Positions 23,738 through 30,719 of a stretch of DNA of 41,578 nt are shown here, piece after piece; position 1 is the stretch's first letter, and the number at the start of each line of letters is the position of its first letter. The notes below the pieces were generated by a model. The model saw nothing but the letters and a program-made list of their open reading frames with translations. It did no database searches and was not told the DNA's origin. This stretch comes from Sphingobacteriales bacterium (GTDB lineage Bacteria > Bacteroidota > Bacteroidia > Chitinophagales > JADJOU01). Both the position numbers and the translations under genes were made by a program. The stretch lies in assembly GCA_021297855.1 (NCBI GenBank), contig JAJTHM010000035.1, positions 1 through 41,578 on the forward strand. Reading direction: 5' to 3'.

Positions 23738-24883
23738 ATGGCAAAAAAGGTAAAAAAATCAACTAAGCCAGTAGCTAAAAAAGCTGCAACAAAAAAGGTA
23801 AATGCAAAACCAACTGCAAAGAAGGCTGCTCCAAAACCGGCACCTAAAAAAGCAACTGCCAAACCAGTAGCTAAAAAATCGGCATCTAAACCTGCTACGA
23901 AAAAACCATTAGCTAAAGCAGCCCCAAAAAAGGCAGCAACAAAACCTCTAACGAAGAAAGCAACACCCAAACCGGTGGCTAAAAAACTAGCTAAGAAAAA
24001 TGTTACTAAACCAGTGGCTAAAAAAGTAGTAGCCAAGAAATCAGTTGCTAAACCAGTGGCTAAAAAAGCAGTAGCCAAGAAATCAGTTACTAAACCAGTG
24101 GCTAAAAAAGTAGTAGCAAAAACTGCAGCTAAGAAAAGTGTAGCTAAACCAGTTGCGAAGAAGGCGACTCCTAAAAAGGCAGCGGCAAATAATACAAAAG
24201 TGTTGCGTGTTGCGCCAAGCGCAAGAGGTGTAGTTATTGATAAGAAGCTTTCTAGTAAAGAAAGAAAGAAAACGGCAGTGAAGCCAGTGGCTAAAAAAGT
24301 AGTAGCAAAGCCTGTAGCAAAAAAGGTTTCTCCTAAACCATCTGTTAAGAAAGAAGCAAAGCCAAATAGTTTAACCCCAGCGTCAATAATCAAAGAAGAT
24401 AAATCAGCTAAACTCGCCTTGCGAAGAAAAAAGATTCAAGAGATCAAGAATAATTATGAGAGCCCATCAAAGAACGAGGAAGATAACTTCGACAATTATC
24501 GTTTACCAATCATAGGAAGAACGAGATTTAATGATGCTGATTTGAATGAATTCAGAGCGATTATTAATAAAAAATTAGCGGAAGCACGCGAGGAGCTTAA
24601 TTTCTACCAAGATCAAATGAAAGAGAGCGAAATGAATGACGATGATATAAAGTTTTCCGGGATGGAAGATGGAGGTCATACTAATGACAAGGAGCATTTA
24701 AGTGCCATGGCTAATCGCCAGGTGAAATTCATTCAAAATCTAGAAGGAGCCTTAGTAAGAATTGAGAATAAAACCTATGGTATTTGTCGAATGACAGGGA
24801 ACCTTATTGATAAGAAAAGATTGCTGGCTGTGCCTCATGCTACCTTAAGTATGGAAGCTAAAACAGGAGCAAAAAAGAAATAA
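23738..24883 (+). CDS. TraR/DksA family protein with histone H1-like Lys/Ala/Pro tail
   Basis: The 381-residue protein has two parts. Residues about 1-225 are almost entirely K, A, P, V, T and S in PVAKK-type repeats, resembling histone H1 tails and suggesting DNA or RNA binding. Residues about 255-381 resemble the DksA/TraR fold: an acidic coiled-coil region (FRAIINKKLAEAREELNFYQ), then YGICRMTGNLIDKKRLLAVP. Only the first of the four zinc-finger cysteines is kept, the usual state in Bacteroidota members. DksA proteins act at the RNA polymerase secondary channel; whether this one does is unproven. It is 5 bases after ileS and before lspA. Codon use in the repeat is limited (AAA, GCT, CCA), favouring repeat slippage. 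Confidence 0.85.
   Translation: MAKKVKKSTKPVAKKAATKKVNAKPTAKKAAPKPAPKKATAKPVAKKSASKPATKKPLAKAAPKKAATKPLTKKATPKPVAKKLAKKNVTKPVAKKVVAKKSVAKPVAKKAVAKKSVTKPVAKKVVAKTAAKKSVAKPVAKKATPKKAAANNTKVLRVAPSARGVVIDKKLSSKERKKTAVKPVAKKVVAKPVAKKVSPKPSVKKEAKPNSLTPASIIKEDKSAKLALRRKKIQEIKNNYESPSKNEEDNFDNYRLPIIGRTRFNDADLNEFRAIINKKLAEAREELNFYQDQMKESEMNDDDIKFSGMEDGGHTNDKEHLSAMANRQVKFIQNLEGALVRIENKTYGICRMTGNLIDKKRLLAVPHATLSMEAKTGAKKK
24008..24133 (+). repeat. 42-bp (14-codon) tandem repeat inside the dksA-like gene
   Basis: Near-identical units start at 24008, 24050 and 24092, each beginning AAACCAGTGGCTAAAAAAG. They encode KPVAKKVVAKKSVA and close variants. The period is a multiple of three, so expansion or loss would keep the frame. 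Confidence 0.8.
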
Positions 24884-25813: not shown

Positions 25814-26593
25814 CTAAATAGAAGAATTTAAAAGCTCTACAATATCTAGAACCTTGACTTCATTTTGCTTTTCAAATGACTTGACGCCATCTTCGAGCAT
25901 AGTGGTACAAAAAGGACAATTAGCAACTATAATACTCGCCCCTGTGTCGAGGGCTTCTTTAGTTCTATTCGTATTGATGCGTTCAGTACCAGTTTCTTCT
26001 TCTTTAAACATCTGTGCCCCGCCAGCGCCGCAGCACATTCCAGTCTTTTTACTGCGTCCCATTTCGGCCAAATCAATATCAAGTGCAGCTAGAACAGCTC
26101 TAGGAGCTTCATACACATCATTGGCACGACCTAAATAGCAGGAATCGTGATAGGTCACTCGTTTGCCTTTGAATTCAGAGGTATCCGATAGTTTGATTTT
26201 CCCTTGATCGATGAGTTCCTGCAGCAATTGAGTATGATGAATGACTTCATAATTTCCACCCAACTCTGGATATTCATTTTTCAAGGAATTGAAGCAGTGA
26301 GGACATGCGGTCACTATTTTTTTGACTTCGTAGCCATTCAAAATTTGGATATTTTGATAAGCCATCATTTGAAAAAGAAACTCATTCCCTGCGCGTCGAG
26401 CAGGATCGCCTGTGCAGCTCTCTTCCTGACCTAGTATCGCGAATTTGATACCGCATTTGGTTAGTATCTCAGCGAAGGCTTTTGAAATTCGCTTGGCTCT
26501 ATCATCAAAACTACCAGCGCATCCCACCCAGAAAAGAATATCAGGACTTTCACCTGCGGCGAGATAGTCTGCCATTGTTTTTATTTCTGTCAT
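25814..26593 (-). CDS. CCG-domain (Fe-S)-binding protein, HdrB/LutA-like
   Basis: The 259-residue protein carries two CCG (cysteine-rich) domains like those of heterodisulfide reductase HdrB/D, LutA and GlpC partners, which bind a non-cubane Fe-S cluster. Domain 1 has GCAGSFDD (Cys24), EESCTGDPARRAGN and CPHCFNSL. Domain 2 has YHDSCYLGR, GMCCGAGGA and NCPFCTTM. It is probably the partner of the membrane Fe-S protein at 29415-30719, as together they make an HdrDE-like unit. The ATG overlaps the stop of the broken PIN toxin gene (ATGA). A diverged copy of its first 33 codons exists at 27276-27377. Confidence 0.9.
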   Translation of the reverse strand: MTEIKTMADYLAAGESPDILFWVGCAGSFDDRAKRISKAFAEILTKCGIKFAILGQEESCTGDPARRAGNEFLFQMMAYQNIQILNGYEVKKIVTACPHCFNSLKNEYPELGGNYEVIHHTQLLQELIDQGKIKLSDTSEFKGKRVTYHDSCYLGRANDVYEAPRAVLAALDIDLAEMGRSKKTGMCCGAGGAQMFKEEETGTERINTNRTKEALDTGASIIVANCPFCTTMLEDGVKSFEKQNEVKVLDIVELLNSSI

Positions 26594-27000
26594 AATTTAC
26601 TTATAATATCAATAAATTCATTCATGTTTAAAGTTTGCACTTGAGGAAATTTAATATCCTTAAGTATATTGTAATGATTGTCTTGTGTCACAATAAAATC
26701 AGAATTTGAACATATGGCTAAATCTACAAATTTATTATCGTCAGGGTCTATGGATATGAGTTCAAATTTGAAATACGGCTCTTGCAAGAAAACATTGTCT
26801 AAATTTTATATTTCATCAATCACCACTTCAGCAAACTCATTAGAATAAAATTTACACAGCAATTCATAATATTCTGTTAAGACTTTATTAGATATAATTA
26901 ATTGATATTTACCTATTCTTAATACATCGTAACCAGTTCGATATTGAGACTTTAAATGAACCGAGACTAAGAGTATGTTCGTGTCTAAAATAATCTTCAA
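26590..27000 (-). pseudogene. PIN-domain toxin interrupted by an in-frame TAA
   Basis: Read through, this is a 136-residue PIN-domain RNase of the 'putative toxin, PIN family' type. It opens with MKIILDTNIL (Asp6) from a TTG start and continues with NKVLTEYYELL (acidic residue) and DPDDNKFVDLAI plus VTQDNHY (further acidic active-site residues). The frame is intact except for one TAA at 26808-26806, after VVIDEI, followed by NLDNVFLQEPYFKFE in the same frame. All catalytic acids are present on both sides, so this looks like a recent nonsense mutation. Its start follows the antitoxin stop with no gap, and its stop overlaps the ccg-type ATG. Confidence 0.82.
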
Positions 27001-27216
27001 CTAGTTTCTTATTATATGATTGTTTAAAATATTATCCATTTCTTCTTGAGATAATTTTTTTTCCTTCCATAATTTATCGGACAGCTCATCTACTTTTTCA
27101 GCAAAAAATTTACTTAGAAGTTCTTTGACTTCTTTCAGTTGATTTTCTGATTTCGTATATTTGAACATATTCAATAAATGAATTTGTGTTTCGTTAAATT
27201 TTGTAGTTTCTATCAT
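27001..27216 (-). CDS. Antitoxin-like protein paired with the PIN toxin
   Basis: This 71-residue, charged, helical protein is rich in Lys and Glu (FKYTKSENQLKEVKELLSKF, DKLWKEKKLSQEEMDNIL). Similar small proteins commonly precede PIN-family toxins in Bacteroidota. The stop codon abuts the toxin's TTG start with no spacer, so translation of the two is coupled. A -7 promoter box lies 20 bases upstream. With the toxin broken, the antitoxin may now be idle. Confidence 0.72.
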   Translation of the reverse strand: MIETTKFNETQIHLLNMFKYTKSENQLKEVKELLSKFFAEKVDELSDKLWKEKKLSQEEMDNILNNHIIRN

Positions 27217-27236
27217 TGTAAAGTCAATTATAAGTT

Positions 27237-27244
27237 CAAATATA
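27237..27244 (-). promoter_or_regulatory. -7 box for the antitoxin-toxin genes
   Basis: On the minus strand this reads TATATTTG (TAnnTTTG), 20 bases upstream of the antitoxin ATG at 27216. The toxin-antitoxin module therefore likely has its own promoter. Confidence 0.45.
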
Positions 27245-27275
27245 AAATGTTTAATTCAATAAATATATTAAAAGC

Positions 27276-27377
27276 TTAAATAGATTTCGCTCTACCATCA
27301 AAAGAGCCTACCCAAAACAAGATATCAGGACTATCTCCATCAGCTAGATAGTCTGCCATTGTTTTTATTTGTGTCAT
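27276..27377 (-). pseudogene. Truncated, diverged copy of the 5' end of the CCG Fe-S gene
   Basis: An ATG at 27377 opens a 33-codon frame, MTQIKTMADYLADGDSPDIL..., that matches the start of the intact gene at 26593 (MTEIKTMADYLAAGESPDIL...) at most positions. The two DNA copies differ at many third positions and by a three-codon deletion that removes the first cluster cysteine (VGCAGSF becomes VGSF). After RAKSI the frame hits TAA. Its ATG overlaps the HNH-like gene's TGA as ATGA, exactly as the intact copy overlaps the PIN gene. Confidence 0.88.
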
Positions 27378-28036
27378 AATTCTTCGATATTTAGTTGTTT
27401 CATGCTCATTTCAAATGCAGTATAAAATTTGTATAAGTCTTTTCTAATTTCTAAAATTTCTTTTTTCCCCATGAGTGCTTCTGAAAAAAGATTCTTTAAG
27501 TATTTCTCCCTATCATTAACAATCGGGCCATAATTTAAACCTAAAATGTCAATGTCATGTTTTATCTTGATTTGAAAATCTATATCTCTTTCTGAATTTG
27601 GAATAAAAATATGCTTGACATAATTGTACTCCAAAAAATAAAATGGGTCAAAATCAGACTTGTCAGGTTTTAGAATGCCATGTGGCTGATTATCTCTTTT
27701 TATTTTTGAATTTATATCGTAGTCAATTAGAAAGAAATTTTGCCAGTCCCATCCTGTTTCTCTTTTTAAGTTGGGAAAATAGTGATCTAAAGCACCCTTT
27801 ACCTCAAATCTATTAAACATTCCATCAACCCATTTTTCTGGTGCAACAGTCTTTTTATCATTTAATAGTACTTCTGTATAAGCACAAAGTCCCCCTTGTA
27901 TCCATACCAAATTGGCTACTATGTCATAATAAAATTTGTGTTTACTAGATGTGTATTCAGGGTGGGTTTCGCCTAAATTATCTAGCCAAGTTTTATACGA
28001 TGTGGCTAAGATTTCAGACTTGTCAATTTTTTTCAT
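27374..28036 (-). CDS. PtuB/TIGR02646-like HNH protein lacking zinc-ligand cysteines
   Basis: The 220-residue protein lines up with the HNH partner of Septu-type ATPases. GGLCAYTE (48-55) stands where the family has CAYCE. ALDHYFPN (82-89) stands where it has EHxxPK, keeping the putative catalytic His85. WQNFFLIDYDINSKIKRDN (98-116) stands where it has NLFLSCxxCNxxKG, keeping Asn109 and Lys111. DILGLN with DRE (163-177) matches the conserved tail. All but one of the zinc cysteines (C51) are gone, so it is either a zinc-free nuclease or inactive. It overlaps the ATPase gene by 14 bases, so they form one operon. Family assignment is by motif pattern only. Confidence 0.7.
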   Translation of the reverse strand: MKKIDKSEILATSYKTWLDNLGETHPEYTSSKHKFYYDIVANLVWIQGGLCAYTEVLLNDKKTVAPEKWVDGMFNRFEVKGALDHYFPNLKRETGWDWQNFFLIDYDINSKIKRDNQPHGILKPDKSDFDPFYFLEYNYVKHIFIPNSERDIDFQIKIKHDIDILGLNYGPIVNDREKYLKNLFSEALMGKKEILEIRKDLYKFYTAFEMSMKQLNIEEL

Positions 28037-29384
28037 CTTCTAACACATTGAAATCCCATGCTACCTGCTCGGCAAGTCTTTTATACTTATCAAATAAATC
28101 CTTAAATTCTTTCGTATTCGTTTTTCCTTCCTTCTTTAGTTTGAAAAGATGGTTCTTATACATTAGTACATCACCTATTTTGTCTATACCTATTTGTGGA
28201 CGTGTTTCCTTCAAATCAAACACATTTTTCAGCATAGTATCATAATCTAAATACTGAGGATAAATATGGTAATTGTCCACATGCCTTTCCCCTTTGTAAT
28301 ACAAATCTTGGTAAACATATCCATTCTCGTCGAGCTTTAACTCTATTATCTCCCATGGCTCAAAGCTAGAAGCTATAATCGGCGAGTGGGTAGCGTAGAA
28401 AAACTGGCTATCTTGGGTCAAACTGGAATAGAAATCTATTATCATTCGCTGCATATCAGGATACAAGGAACGCTCTGGCTCATCAAAAAGAATAATCGTA
28501 TTCCTTGGCTTTAGCAGGTAGAGGGGCAATGCAGAGTATAAAATTTGTTTTGTTCCTGTACTAAGCAGTCCATGAGGAATCTCATTGCCATCAAAGTCCT
28601 CAATTTTAATAAATCCAATCTCTTCTTTACTTTGAATGTCGGATTCTCGTTTAACTCTAAGGTTCAAGGGTTTTAGCAAAAAGTCAATACATTTTTCTGC
28701 TATCACTTCAATAGGACTTGCATTTTTTTTCTTCCAATTTTCAAATTTTCTGACAACTTTCTGAATTTCCTTTATATCTGCATTGAATGACTCTGCTACT
28801 CTAGAAATTTCTTGTCTAAAAATCAAACTCTTTTCTTGATATATTTTAATTTCATCAAGGATAATATTCCAGATATCACCTAGTGATTCATGTGCTAAGT
28901 CAATTACTTTTTTATCTGTAATTTTATAGTTTTCTTTTTGGGCAATGTTTTCATATTTAAGATCAGCAGGAAAGTTTATTATATGGGTAGGTATTTCCAA
29001 TATTACGCTTGCCTTATAGGTTTTGGCTCTATCGAAAGTGCTTTTTCTTCCTCTTATCGAATAATCCTGCCAATAGTATCTTGCTTCCTGAGTAGACTCA
29101 TCGTAACCGAGGGTTACTCTATACTTAAGGTCGTTCAAAATATTGCTAACGTAAATACTATTTTTTGTTTTATTTAAGTTATAAAATTTTTCAAAATCTC
29201 TTAACCTATATGTATGCCCACCTAAAATTTTCAACAACGTCGTCTTCCCCGTCCCACTCTGCCCTATAAAGCACACCTTATCCAAAGGTTGCCCTTCTTT
29301 CGCATGGCCTTTTGGATAAGTCAAGTCAATATCCAAGCTTTTGAATTGATTGAAATCCTTTATTTCTATTCGAGTGACTTTCAT
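28023..29384 (-). CDS. ABC/AAA-type ATPase of a Septu (PtuA)-like defence module
   Basis: The 453-residue protein has an SMC/ABC-like split ATPase fold. It shows Walker A GQSGTGKTT (41-49), a helical insertion (about 160-245), the signature LLSTGTKQ (273-280), Walker B IILFDEPE (297-304) and an H-loop ATHSP (331-335). The N-terminus (MKVTRIEIKDFNQFKSLDIDL) is typical of AAA_21/OLD-like defence ATPases. No Toprim follows, so it is not an OLD nuclease by itself. Its 3' end overlaps the HNH-like gene, the arrangement of PtuA-PtuB. It begins 30 bases after the Fe-S membrane gene, in the same direction, with an AGGAG stretch upstream. Cell-level role is inferred. Confidence 0.82.
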   Translation of the reverse strand: MKVTRIEIKDFNQFKSLDIDLTYPKGHAKEGQPLDKVCFIGQSGTGKTTLLKILGGHTYRLRDFEKFYNLNKTKNSIYVSNILNDLKYRVTLGYDESTQEARYYWQDYSIRGRKSTFDRAKTYKASVILEIPTHIINFPADLKYENIAQKENYKITDKKVIDLAHESLGDIWNIILDEIKIYQEKSLIFRQEISRVAESFNADIKEIQKVVRKFENWKKKNASPIEVIAEKCIDFLLKPLNLRVKRESDIQSKEEIGFIKIEDFDGNEIPHGLLSTGTKQILYSALPLYLLKPRNTIILFDEPERSLYPDMQRMIIDFYSSLTQDSQFFYATHSPIIASSFEPWEIIELKLDENGYVYQDLYYKGERHVDNYHIYPQYLDYDTMLKNVFDLKETRPQIGIDKIGDVLMYKNHLFKLKKEGKTNTKEFKDLFDKYKRLAEQVAWDFNVLEDEKN

Positions 29385-29414
29385 TACTTTTTTCTTTTAC
29401 CTTTCTCCTTTCAG

Positions 29415-30719
29415 CTACTTCGCCCAATTTCCTCTTTCACTCTGCGCAAATTTCCATGGCGCACCATTATTTTCTATATTGCCAAACATTCCATTCCACT
29501 CTTGAGGAGAATTTGACTCTTCCATGATGAGGTTTCTGCGGAGTTGTACGATAATATCGAGCGGAGAAATATTGATAGGACATTCTTCGACACAGGCATT
29601 GCAGGTAGTGCATCCCCTCAATTCTTCTACCGAAATATAATTGTGAAGAAGGGATTTACCGTCCTCTTTCCATTCATTGTTATTGGCTTCCATTAGTTTA
29701 CCTACTTCTTCTAGTCTATCACGGGTATCCATCATGATTTTGCGAGGAGAAAGTTTTTTCCCTGTTTGATTGGCAGGACAGGCAGAGGTACATCGACCAC
29801 ACTCCGTACACGCGTATGCATCCAATAAATTTTTCTGCGATAAATCGAAGATATCTTTCGCTCCAAATTTTGGCATCGCATTGGGATCCGAAGCCTCTAC
29901 CGGTTCACCCATCATGGATTTGATTTCATGCAAAATCTCTGGCATATACGCTATGTGGCCTTTCGCATTTGGGTTAGACAAATAGGCATTTGGGAAGGCG
30001 AGGAGAATATGTAAATGCTTCGAATGTGGAAGATAGAGTATAAACCCTAAAATACCGATGAGGTGCATCCACCAGCCAAATTTGGATAGAAAAACAACTG
30101 TTTCTGGGTGTAAACCATTAAAAATAAAAGCAATTTTACTACTTATAAAGAAACTGTATCCTTCTTGGCTTGTTATATTCATATAAAAAGACTCTGCTCC
30201 ATTCATCAAAAATATTCCAAAGACAAGAAAAATTTCTCCAATCAATATAATATTGGCATCCTTCATCGGCCAGCCTTTCAGTTCAGCCATATTCAATCGA
30301 GGCAATTTCAATAAATTTCTTCTACTGAGAAATACAACCGTAGCAATGAGAGCCAATAGGGATAGGATTTCTATGGTATTGATCAAAGAAGTATATAGCC
30401 ATGAACAACAGGATAGCATGGCATGTCCTAGGATTCTATGGGATCCAGTAAAGCCATCAATCAAAATTTCAATCAACTCTAGCTGCGTAAAAACAAAGGC
30501 TATATAAATAAATAAGTGGAAGATAGCGGCTATTGGTCTTGAGAACATTTTTTTCTGACCTAGTGCTATAAGCGCCATATTCTTTAATTTCGCCAAAGTG
30601 CCATTTGGATTTGAGTAGGTCTTACCTAACTGAATGTTAGAATATATTCGCTTATATTTCTTGATGGAGAAAAAGATTACTACTGCTAGAAGCAAACAAA
30701 AAACCAGAATGGAAATCAT
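29415..30719 (-). CDS. Membrane (Fe-S)-binding reductase subunit, HdrE/HdrD-like
   Basis: The 434-residue protein has an N-terminal membrane part with about six helices (about 1-20, 62-85, 108-132, 157-175, 190-205 and 213-231), like a NarI/HdrE-type cytochrome b subunit. A soluble part follows with two [4Fe-4S] ferredoxin motifs, C304-x2-C307-x2-C310-x3-C314-P and C370-x2-C373-x2-C376-x3-C380-P. It probably passes electrons between the quinone pool and the CCG protein at 25814, which in simpler operons would be the next gene. Here an accessory insert separates them. Its ATG is 1 base after the desaturase stop, so these two are cotranslated. Confidence 0.87.
   Translation of the reverse strand: MISILVFCLLLAVVIFFSIKKYKRIYSNIQLGKTYSNPNGTLAKLKNMALIALGQKKMFSRPIAAIFHLFIYIAFVFTQLELIEILIDGFTGSHRILGHAMLSCCSWLYTSLINTIEILSLLALIATVVFLSRRNLLKLPRLNMAELKGWPMKDANIILIGEIFLVFGIFLMNGAESFYMNITSQEGYSFFISSKIAFIFNGLHPETVVFLSKFGWWMHLIGILGFILYLPHSKHLHILLAFPNAYLSNPNAKGHIAYMPEILHEIKSMMGEPVEASDPNAMPKFGAKDIFDLSQKNLLDAYACTECGRCTSACPANQTGKKLSPRKIMMDTRDRLEEVGKLMEANNNEWKEDGKSLLHNYISVEELRGCTTCNACVEECPINISPLDIIVQLRRNLIMEESNSPQEWNGMFGNIENNGAPWKFAQSERGNWAK

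Follow-up and report, generated by a model that had tools for sequence, protein, structure and literature searches.

Organization of the ptuAB Locus

The window, i.e., the whole stretch of 41,578 nucleotides that was analyzed, carries two overlapping genes that we assign to a Septu type I system. They are located together with a toxin-antitoxin pair in an insert between two oxidoreductase genes. The features of the region are:

25814..26593, minus strand: gene for a CCG-domain oxidoreductase subunit, flanking the insert
26594..29414, no strand assigned: AT-rich insert of 2,821 bp between the two oxidoreductase genes, holding ptuAB and the toxin-antitoxin pair; 31.1% GC (38% in the window)
26590..27000, minus strand: PIN_3 toxin-like gene with a TTG start and one in-frame TAA after residue 64
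27001..27216, minus strand: antitoxin-like gene, 71 aa, of a family that precedes PIN genes
27374..28036, minus strand: ptuB, HNH nuclease with PtuB fold and without the Cys4 zinc site, 220 aa
27710..27724, minus strand: DYDIN, PtuB residues 105-109, lacking the second Cys pair but with Asn109 kept (counted from the ORF start at 28036)
27872..27886, minus strand: CAYTE, PtuB residues 51-55, the first zinc half-site with Thr at the second Cys (counted from the same ORF start)
28023..29384, minus strand: ptuA, ABC-type ATPase of Septu, 453 aa, assigned by profiles and fold
29415..30719, minus strand: gene for a 4Fe-4S membrane oxidoreductase, flanking the insert, 30 bp upstream of ptuA

The open reading frames, their coordinates and strand, and the 14-bp overlap between ptuA and ptuB (28023-28036) were exactly as given in the original prediction. 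The ATPase motifs quoted there were all present, i.e., Walker A (GQSGTGKTT, residues 41-49), the signature (LSTGTKQ), Walker B (TIILFDEPE, residues 296-304), and the H-loop (THSP, residues 332-335), but the signature is located at residues 274-280 and not at 273-280. In PtuB we identified C51-A-Y-T54-E55, D84-H85, W98-Q-N100, D105-Y-D-I108-N109, and K111. N100 is the first Asn of H-N-H and was missing from the residues listed previously. The proposed loss of zinc ligands was confirmed, as T54, D105, and I108 align with the second, third, and fourth Cys of canonical PtuBs.

The insertion site was found empty in four genomes of the same genus (L066-L069), where both oxidoreductase genes are adjacent and about 20 bp apart. 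In the window, a two-gene (Fe-S) oxidoreductase operon is thus split by the insert. The stop codon of the PIN gene still overlaps the start codon of the CCG gene (ATGA) at the insert end, and the junction therefore looks seamless. No integrase or transposase was seen at the insert, and no direct repeat of at least 6 bp between its ends was found in the zones tested.

Relatives of the 71-aa gene (L114, L119, L120) are each located directly before a PIN-domain gene, and the toxin-antitoxin assignment is therefore sound. Intact relatives of the PIN toxin-antitoxin pair exist, L119 in the window's own genome and L120 in a second genome of its order. The toxin-antitoxin genes had been taken as support for a defense context. 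The genes do exist, but since the PIN gene contains an in-frame stop they are weak evidence of such a context; the pair indicates a site that has collected mobile cargo and is not strong evidence for defense.

The neighbors of ptuAB in the window are the oxidoreductases, a desaturase, the toxin-antitoxin pair, and lspA. There was no reverse transcriptase among the neighboring genes. A 381-aa protein encoded at 23738-24883 has an N-terminus with a long Lys/Ala/Pro (PAKK) repeat and a DksA/TraR-like C-terminus. The latter reads GICRMTG, and the usual DksA/TraR zinc cysteines are seemingly missing.

Identity of the HNH Protein

The AlphaFold2 model of the 220-residue protein had a pLDDT of 88 and a pTM of 0.86. 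The first 12 PDB matches of the model were all PtuB chains (Z 8.3-16.4), with full-length PtuBs at Z 12.7-16.4. After a gap, the next group consisted of Cas9-type HNH domains at Z 4.8. The best match was retron Ec78 PtuB (9u9y_H, Z 16.4, 2.8 Å, 183 residues aligned), and PtuB of E. coli Septu (8eea_G) was matched at Z 15.4. The identity to solved PtuBs was 15-22% in structural alignment. The model contains the beta-beta-alpha metal motif, formed by strands 81-85 and 101-105 and helix 106-111. The strong match, to PtuB structures only, identifies the predicted fold as that of PtuB. The predicted structure thereby agrees with the earlier view that the protein follows the PtuB pattern from end to end, and not with an unrelated fold.

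The profile searches were less uniform. The PADLOC profiles HNH_I-A (E 8.5e-11) and PtuB1 (E 4.2e-9) matched the protein, whereas the scores for NCBIfam PtuB NF041761 (E 7.3e-7, 29.2 of 150 bits) and for TIGR02646 (E 0.033, 14.3 of 52.15 bits), the family to which it had been compared, were far below the curated cut-offs. There was no significant match in Pfam (DUF596 at 0.02).

Loss of the Zinc Site in a Bacteroidota Lineage

A scan of 84,980 species genomes with an alignment-based query resulted in 13 related loci, all in records named as Bacteroidota, while the same scan with the single PtuB sequence found nothing. In the data used, two loci were cut short, L025 by an in-frame stop and L028 by the end of the contig. 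Residues 51-55 read CA[YF][TS]E in all 13 loci, and the second Cys pair was present in none of them. An ATPase gene was found immediately upstream of ptuB in every homologous locus. Conservation of CAYT and DYDIN in a clade of such pairs, raised as a question in the original prediction, thus holds as a common loss. Thirteen sequences, the window and 12 of the related loci, were aligned, with 36-55% identity to the window. C51, E55, H85, N100, and N109 were invariant, as was H25 in the long type represented by the window, and position 84 was D or E. The replaced zinc positions varied: position 105 is D, H, S, Q, or E, position 54 is Thr or Ser, and position 108 is Ile, Val, or Thr.

A shorter PtuB of 189-198 aa, likewise without zinc site, was found in the genomes with the top PDLC00274 matches (L030-L032) and in L106 and L107. 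These short-type proteins carry CAYT, CVYT, or CAYS, lack the second Cys pair, and have xWN or xIN in place of DxDIN. Altogether, the two Cys pairs around the HNH motif were missing from each of the 17 clade members. Both pairs were kept by the canonical PtuBs that the survey also contained (e.g., L036, L057, L059, L105, and L108, the last from the window's own genome).

Since all 13 related loci share the loss, and C51, E55, H85, N100, and N109 are invariant in the alignment, it is more than chance; it is a feature of a Bacteroidota lineage and not an oddity of a single gene. We rejected sequencing error and gene decay as explanations, because the loss is fixed throughout a clade whose catalytic residues do not vary. 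Four candidates from a class-wide search (L082-L085, open frames of 811-839 aa) were dropped; two of them, L082 and L083, are Lon proteases. L012 was matched at E 0.008. A related PtuB remnant with an in-frame TAG (L013/L086, G190 C2 5208-5618) was found in a Runella genome that also has an intact pair.

Loss of structural zinc often goes together with loss of activity. PtuB of this lineage could therefore be a catalytically dead scaffold or regulator, with PtuA sequestering something or with another activity altogether. We consider this improbable, since H85, N100, N109, D/E84, and C51-E55 should have been lost from a dead nuclease but persist in the 13 aligned sequences, at 36-55% identity, as well as in the short sister type. 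The same invariant H-N-H residues do not support the repurposed effector suggested originally.

It is similarly improbable that the zinc site was rebuilt instead of lost, so that C51 together with, e.g., Asp/His105 or His25 still binds metal. C51 and, in the long type, H25 are invariant as such a site would have it, but positions 54, 105, and 108 are not, H25 lies in a low-confidence stretch of the model (pLDDT 58), and no His precedes the CxYT motif in the short types L031 and L032. The retention of C51 throughout leaves, strictly taken, some room for a residual or different metal site in PtuB.

The ATPase Partner and Comparison to Known Systems

The ATPase was matched from end to end (residues 1-434) by the PADLOC profile PDLC00274 PtuA1 at E 2.7e-67. 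The AriA models of PADLOC matched at E 1.2e-22 and Pfam AAA_15 at E 6.8e-24. The AlphaFold2 model, built from 11 sequences, was mediocre (pLDDT 72). It was nearest to PtuA of E. coli Septu (8ee4_E, Z 22.3; 8eea_D, Z 22.1), with AriA of PARIS nearly as good (Z 20.3) and SMC/Rad50 heads lower. In a sequence search of PDB, AriA ranked first (E 6.7e-7). Despite this rank the ATPase is PtuA of Septu, because profile and partner decide.

The pair resembles Septu type I (E. coli 8eea/8ee4; Septu EcB88) in the ptuA-ptuB order, a PtuA-type ABC ATPase by motifs, profile, and fold, a PtuB-fold HNH partner encoded directly downstream of ptuA, the catalytic residues H85, N100, and N109, and no reverse transcriptase or retron RNA. 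PtuA1 profile and PtuB fold thus agree with the Septu-type pair proposed originally. The pair differs from Septu type I in that PtuB is without the Cys4 zinc site and that, in the long type, CAYTE is separated from the HNH strand by about 20 additional residues. The term divergent, used earlier, has to be qualified, since the ATPase is well within the existing PtuA1 family of PADLOC, in which zinc-less PtuBs are likewise the partners of the other members. In these Bacteroidota pairs (L030-L032, L106, L107) the ATPase belongs to the same clade as that of the window, but their PtuB is of the short type whereas the window has the long type with DxDIN.

The PtuAB effector of type I-A retrons (Ec78/Eco7, Ec83) is also similar, with Ec78 PtuBs being the top structural matches and HNH_I-A the best PADLOC profile. 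In contrast to these retrons, the window has no reverse transcriptase gene beside ptuAB, and there is no room for a retron RNA because only 30 bp precede ptuA. Ec78 PtuB moreover retains CAYC and C...C. A role like that of PARIS, i.e., an AriA-type sensor ATPase with another effector, would account for the related ABC ATPase head and the AriA matches, but is very unlikely given that AriB is a TOPRIM nuclease while the partner here has the PtuB fold and no TOPRIM, and that the PtuA1 profile fits far better than AriA.

Phylogeny, Further Losses, and an Apparent Partner Swap

In the PtuB tree the 17 zinc-less sequences, of both long and short type, formed a single clade (support 98/97). The 16 partner ATPases formed a single clade in the PtuA tree (support 100/100). 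The exception was L026, with a PtuB that is placed within the long type (99/99) and a PtuA that falls outside the clade and comes from a different one. The simplest reading is a partner swap, and L026 apparently combines a zinc-less PtuB of the same type with a foreign PtuA. The pair (L026 1732-3627) is located 20 bp ahead of a tgt-like gene.

Outside the clade, three TIGR02646-type proteins (L050, L052, and L062) also lack the cysteines; they read CGYTE or CCYTG and miss the second Cys pair. L050 and L052 joined the zinc-less clade weakly, while L062 was placed among PtuBs with zinc site (95/89). At least two losses of the zinc site are therefore needed. L050 and L052 lack the cysteines yet score 79 and 76 bits against TIGR02646, above the cut-off of 52, and at least one further loss (L062) is independent. 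The zinc site is therefore dispensable and does not define the PtuB family or Septu. In L102 (G057 C1 near 632-634 kb), a TIGR02646 protein of 297 aa directly follows a 742-aa protein that itself has a TIGR02646 match.

Genomic Placement

Homologs found without the ATPase and far from defense genes had been named as evidence against a Septu pair, and this was not seen in full. The ATPase was always there, but most homologs are not beside other defense genes; relatives are mostly located outside defense islands, at the tails of housekeeping genes. In 14 of 17 loci, at most 120 bp separate the start of ptuA from the gene ahead of it on the same strand. This placement was weakly enriched relative to a background of 55% (p 0.017, for members that are not independent). 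The preceding gene is often a housekeeping gene, and the pair could on that account serve the housekeeping operon it is located in instead of defense. We find this hardly probable, because the neighboring genes, named from their sequences, differ between genomes (trpB, pntB, asnS, purK/purE, a recD-like helicase), four congeners have an empty site, and the distribution is patchy (4 of 395 genomes).

No relatives were found by tblastn in plasmid and phage records (PtuB in both, PtuA in plasmids only) or among IMG/VR viral contigs, and nothing thus indicates that phages or plasmids carry the pair.

The window's own genome contains two more Septu-like pairs with complete zinc sites, L108 (C80) and L109 (C27), which immediately follow a sucA-like and an acyltransferase E2-like gene, respectively. 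All three Septu-like pairs of this genome lie within 50 bp after a same-strand metabolic gene. In L031 and L032 (L111), from two genomes of one genus, a zinc-less Septu pair is located between purK and purE.

Proposed Function

We conclude, with a probability of roughly 0.8, that the pair is a Septu type I system of a Bacteroidota lineage in which PtuB lost its structural zinc but kept the HNH active site, and that it encodes a predicted phage-triggered nuclease held by PtuA. Since the nuclease lineage consistently lost the zinc site while keeping the catalytic residues, the pair is natural variation within a known system and not a new system. As the active-site residues are invariant and the structural metal site alone is gone, an active HNH nuclease held and triggered by PtuA is the most likely function. 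Other HNH domains, those of Cas9 and the colicin DNases, also do without structural zinc, and a zinc-free active HNH is therefore plausible biochemistry.

By analogy to the solved PtuAB complexes, PtuB would be held by an oligomer of PtuA ATPases, and phage infection may release or activate it. With Asp84/His85, Asn100, and Asn109, PtuB would bind a divalent metal and cleave nucleic acid. The substrate may be DNA or, as for retron-Eco7 and Septu EcB88, a tRNA, and phage growth would be stopped. PtuB is presumably zinc-free in the cell, with the zinc knuckle, which links the HNH helix to the loop that precedes the HNH strand, probably replaced by ordinary packing of Thr/Ser54, Ile/Val108, and a polar residue at position 105.

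In Septu EcB88, both Walker motifs of PtuA and PtuB residues H75 and N91 are essential for defense, and tRNA-Tyr is cut in the variable loop after infection (PMC13096335). By spacing and alignment, H75 and N91 probably correspond to H85 and N100 here. The known PtuBs differ in target, as PtuAB of retron-Eco7 likewise depletes tRNA-Tyr while Septu PtuB of E. coli ATCC 25922 targets phage DNA.

Septu itself has been described before, and PADLOC already contains the ATPase family; a non-exhaustive search of the searchable literature gave no description of a zinc-less PtuB. More tentatively, and with doubt prevailing, the altered HNH region of this lineage, with no knuckle and an insertion of about 20 residues by the active site, may direct the zinc-free PtuB to a target other than the DNA or tRNA-Tyr of known PtuBs, and such a PtuB may be transferable to an unrelated PtuA as in L026. 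For annotation, the lineage is a warning that real PtuBs are overlooked when searches rely on the CxxC pairs and on the cut-off of TIGR02646. With the zinc knuckle by the active site gone, the catalytic residues kept, and the ATPase changed once, it provides a comparison set for the contributions of the knuckle, the insertion, and PtuA.
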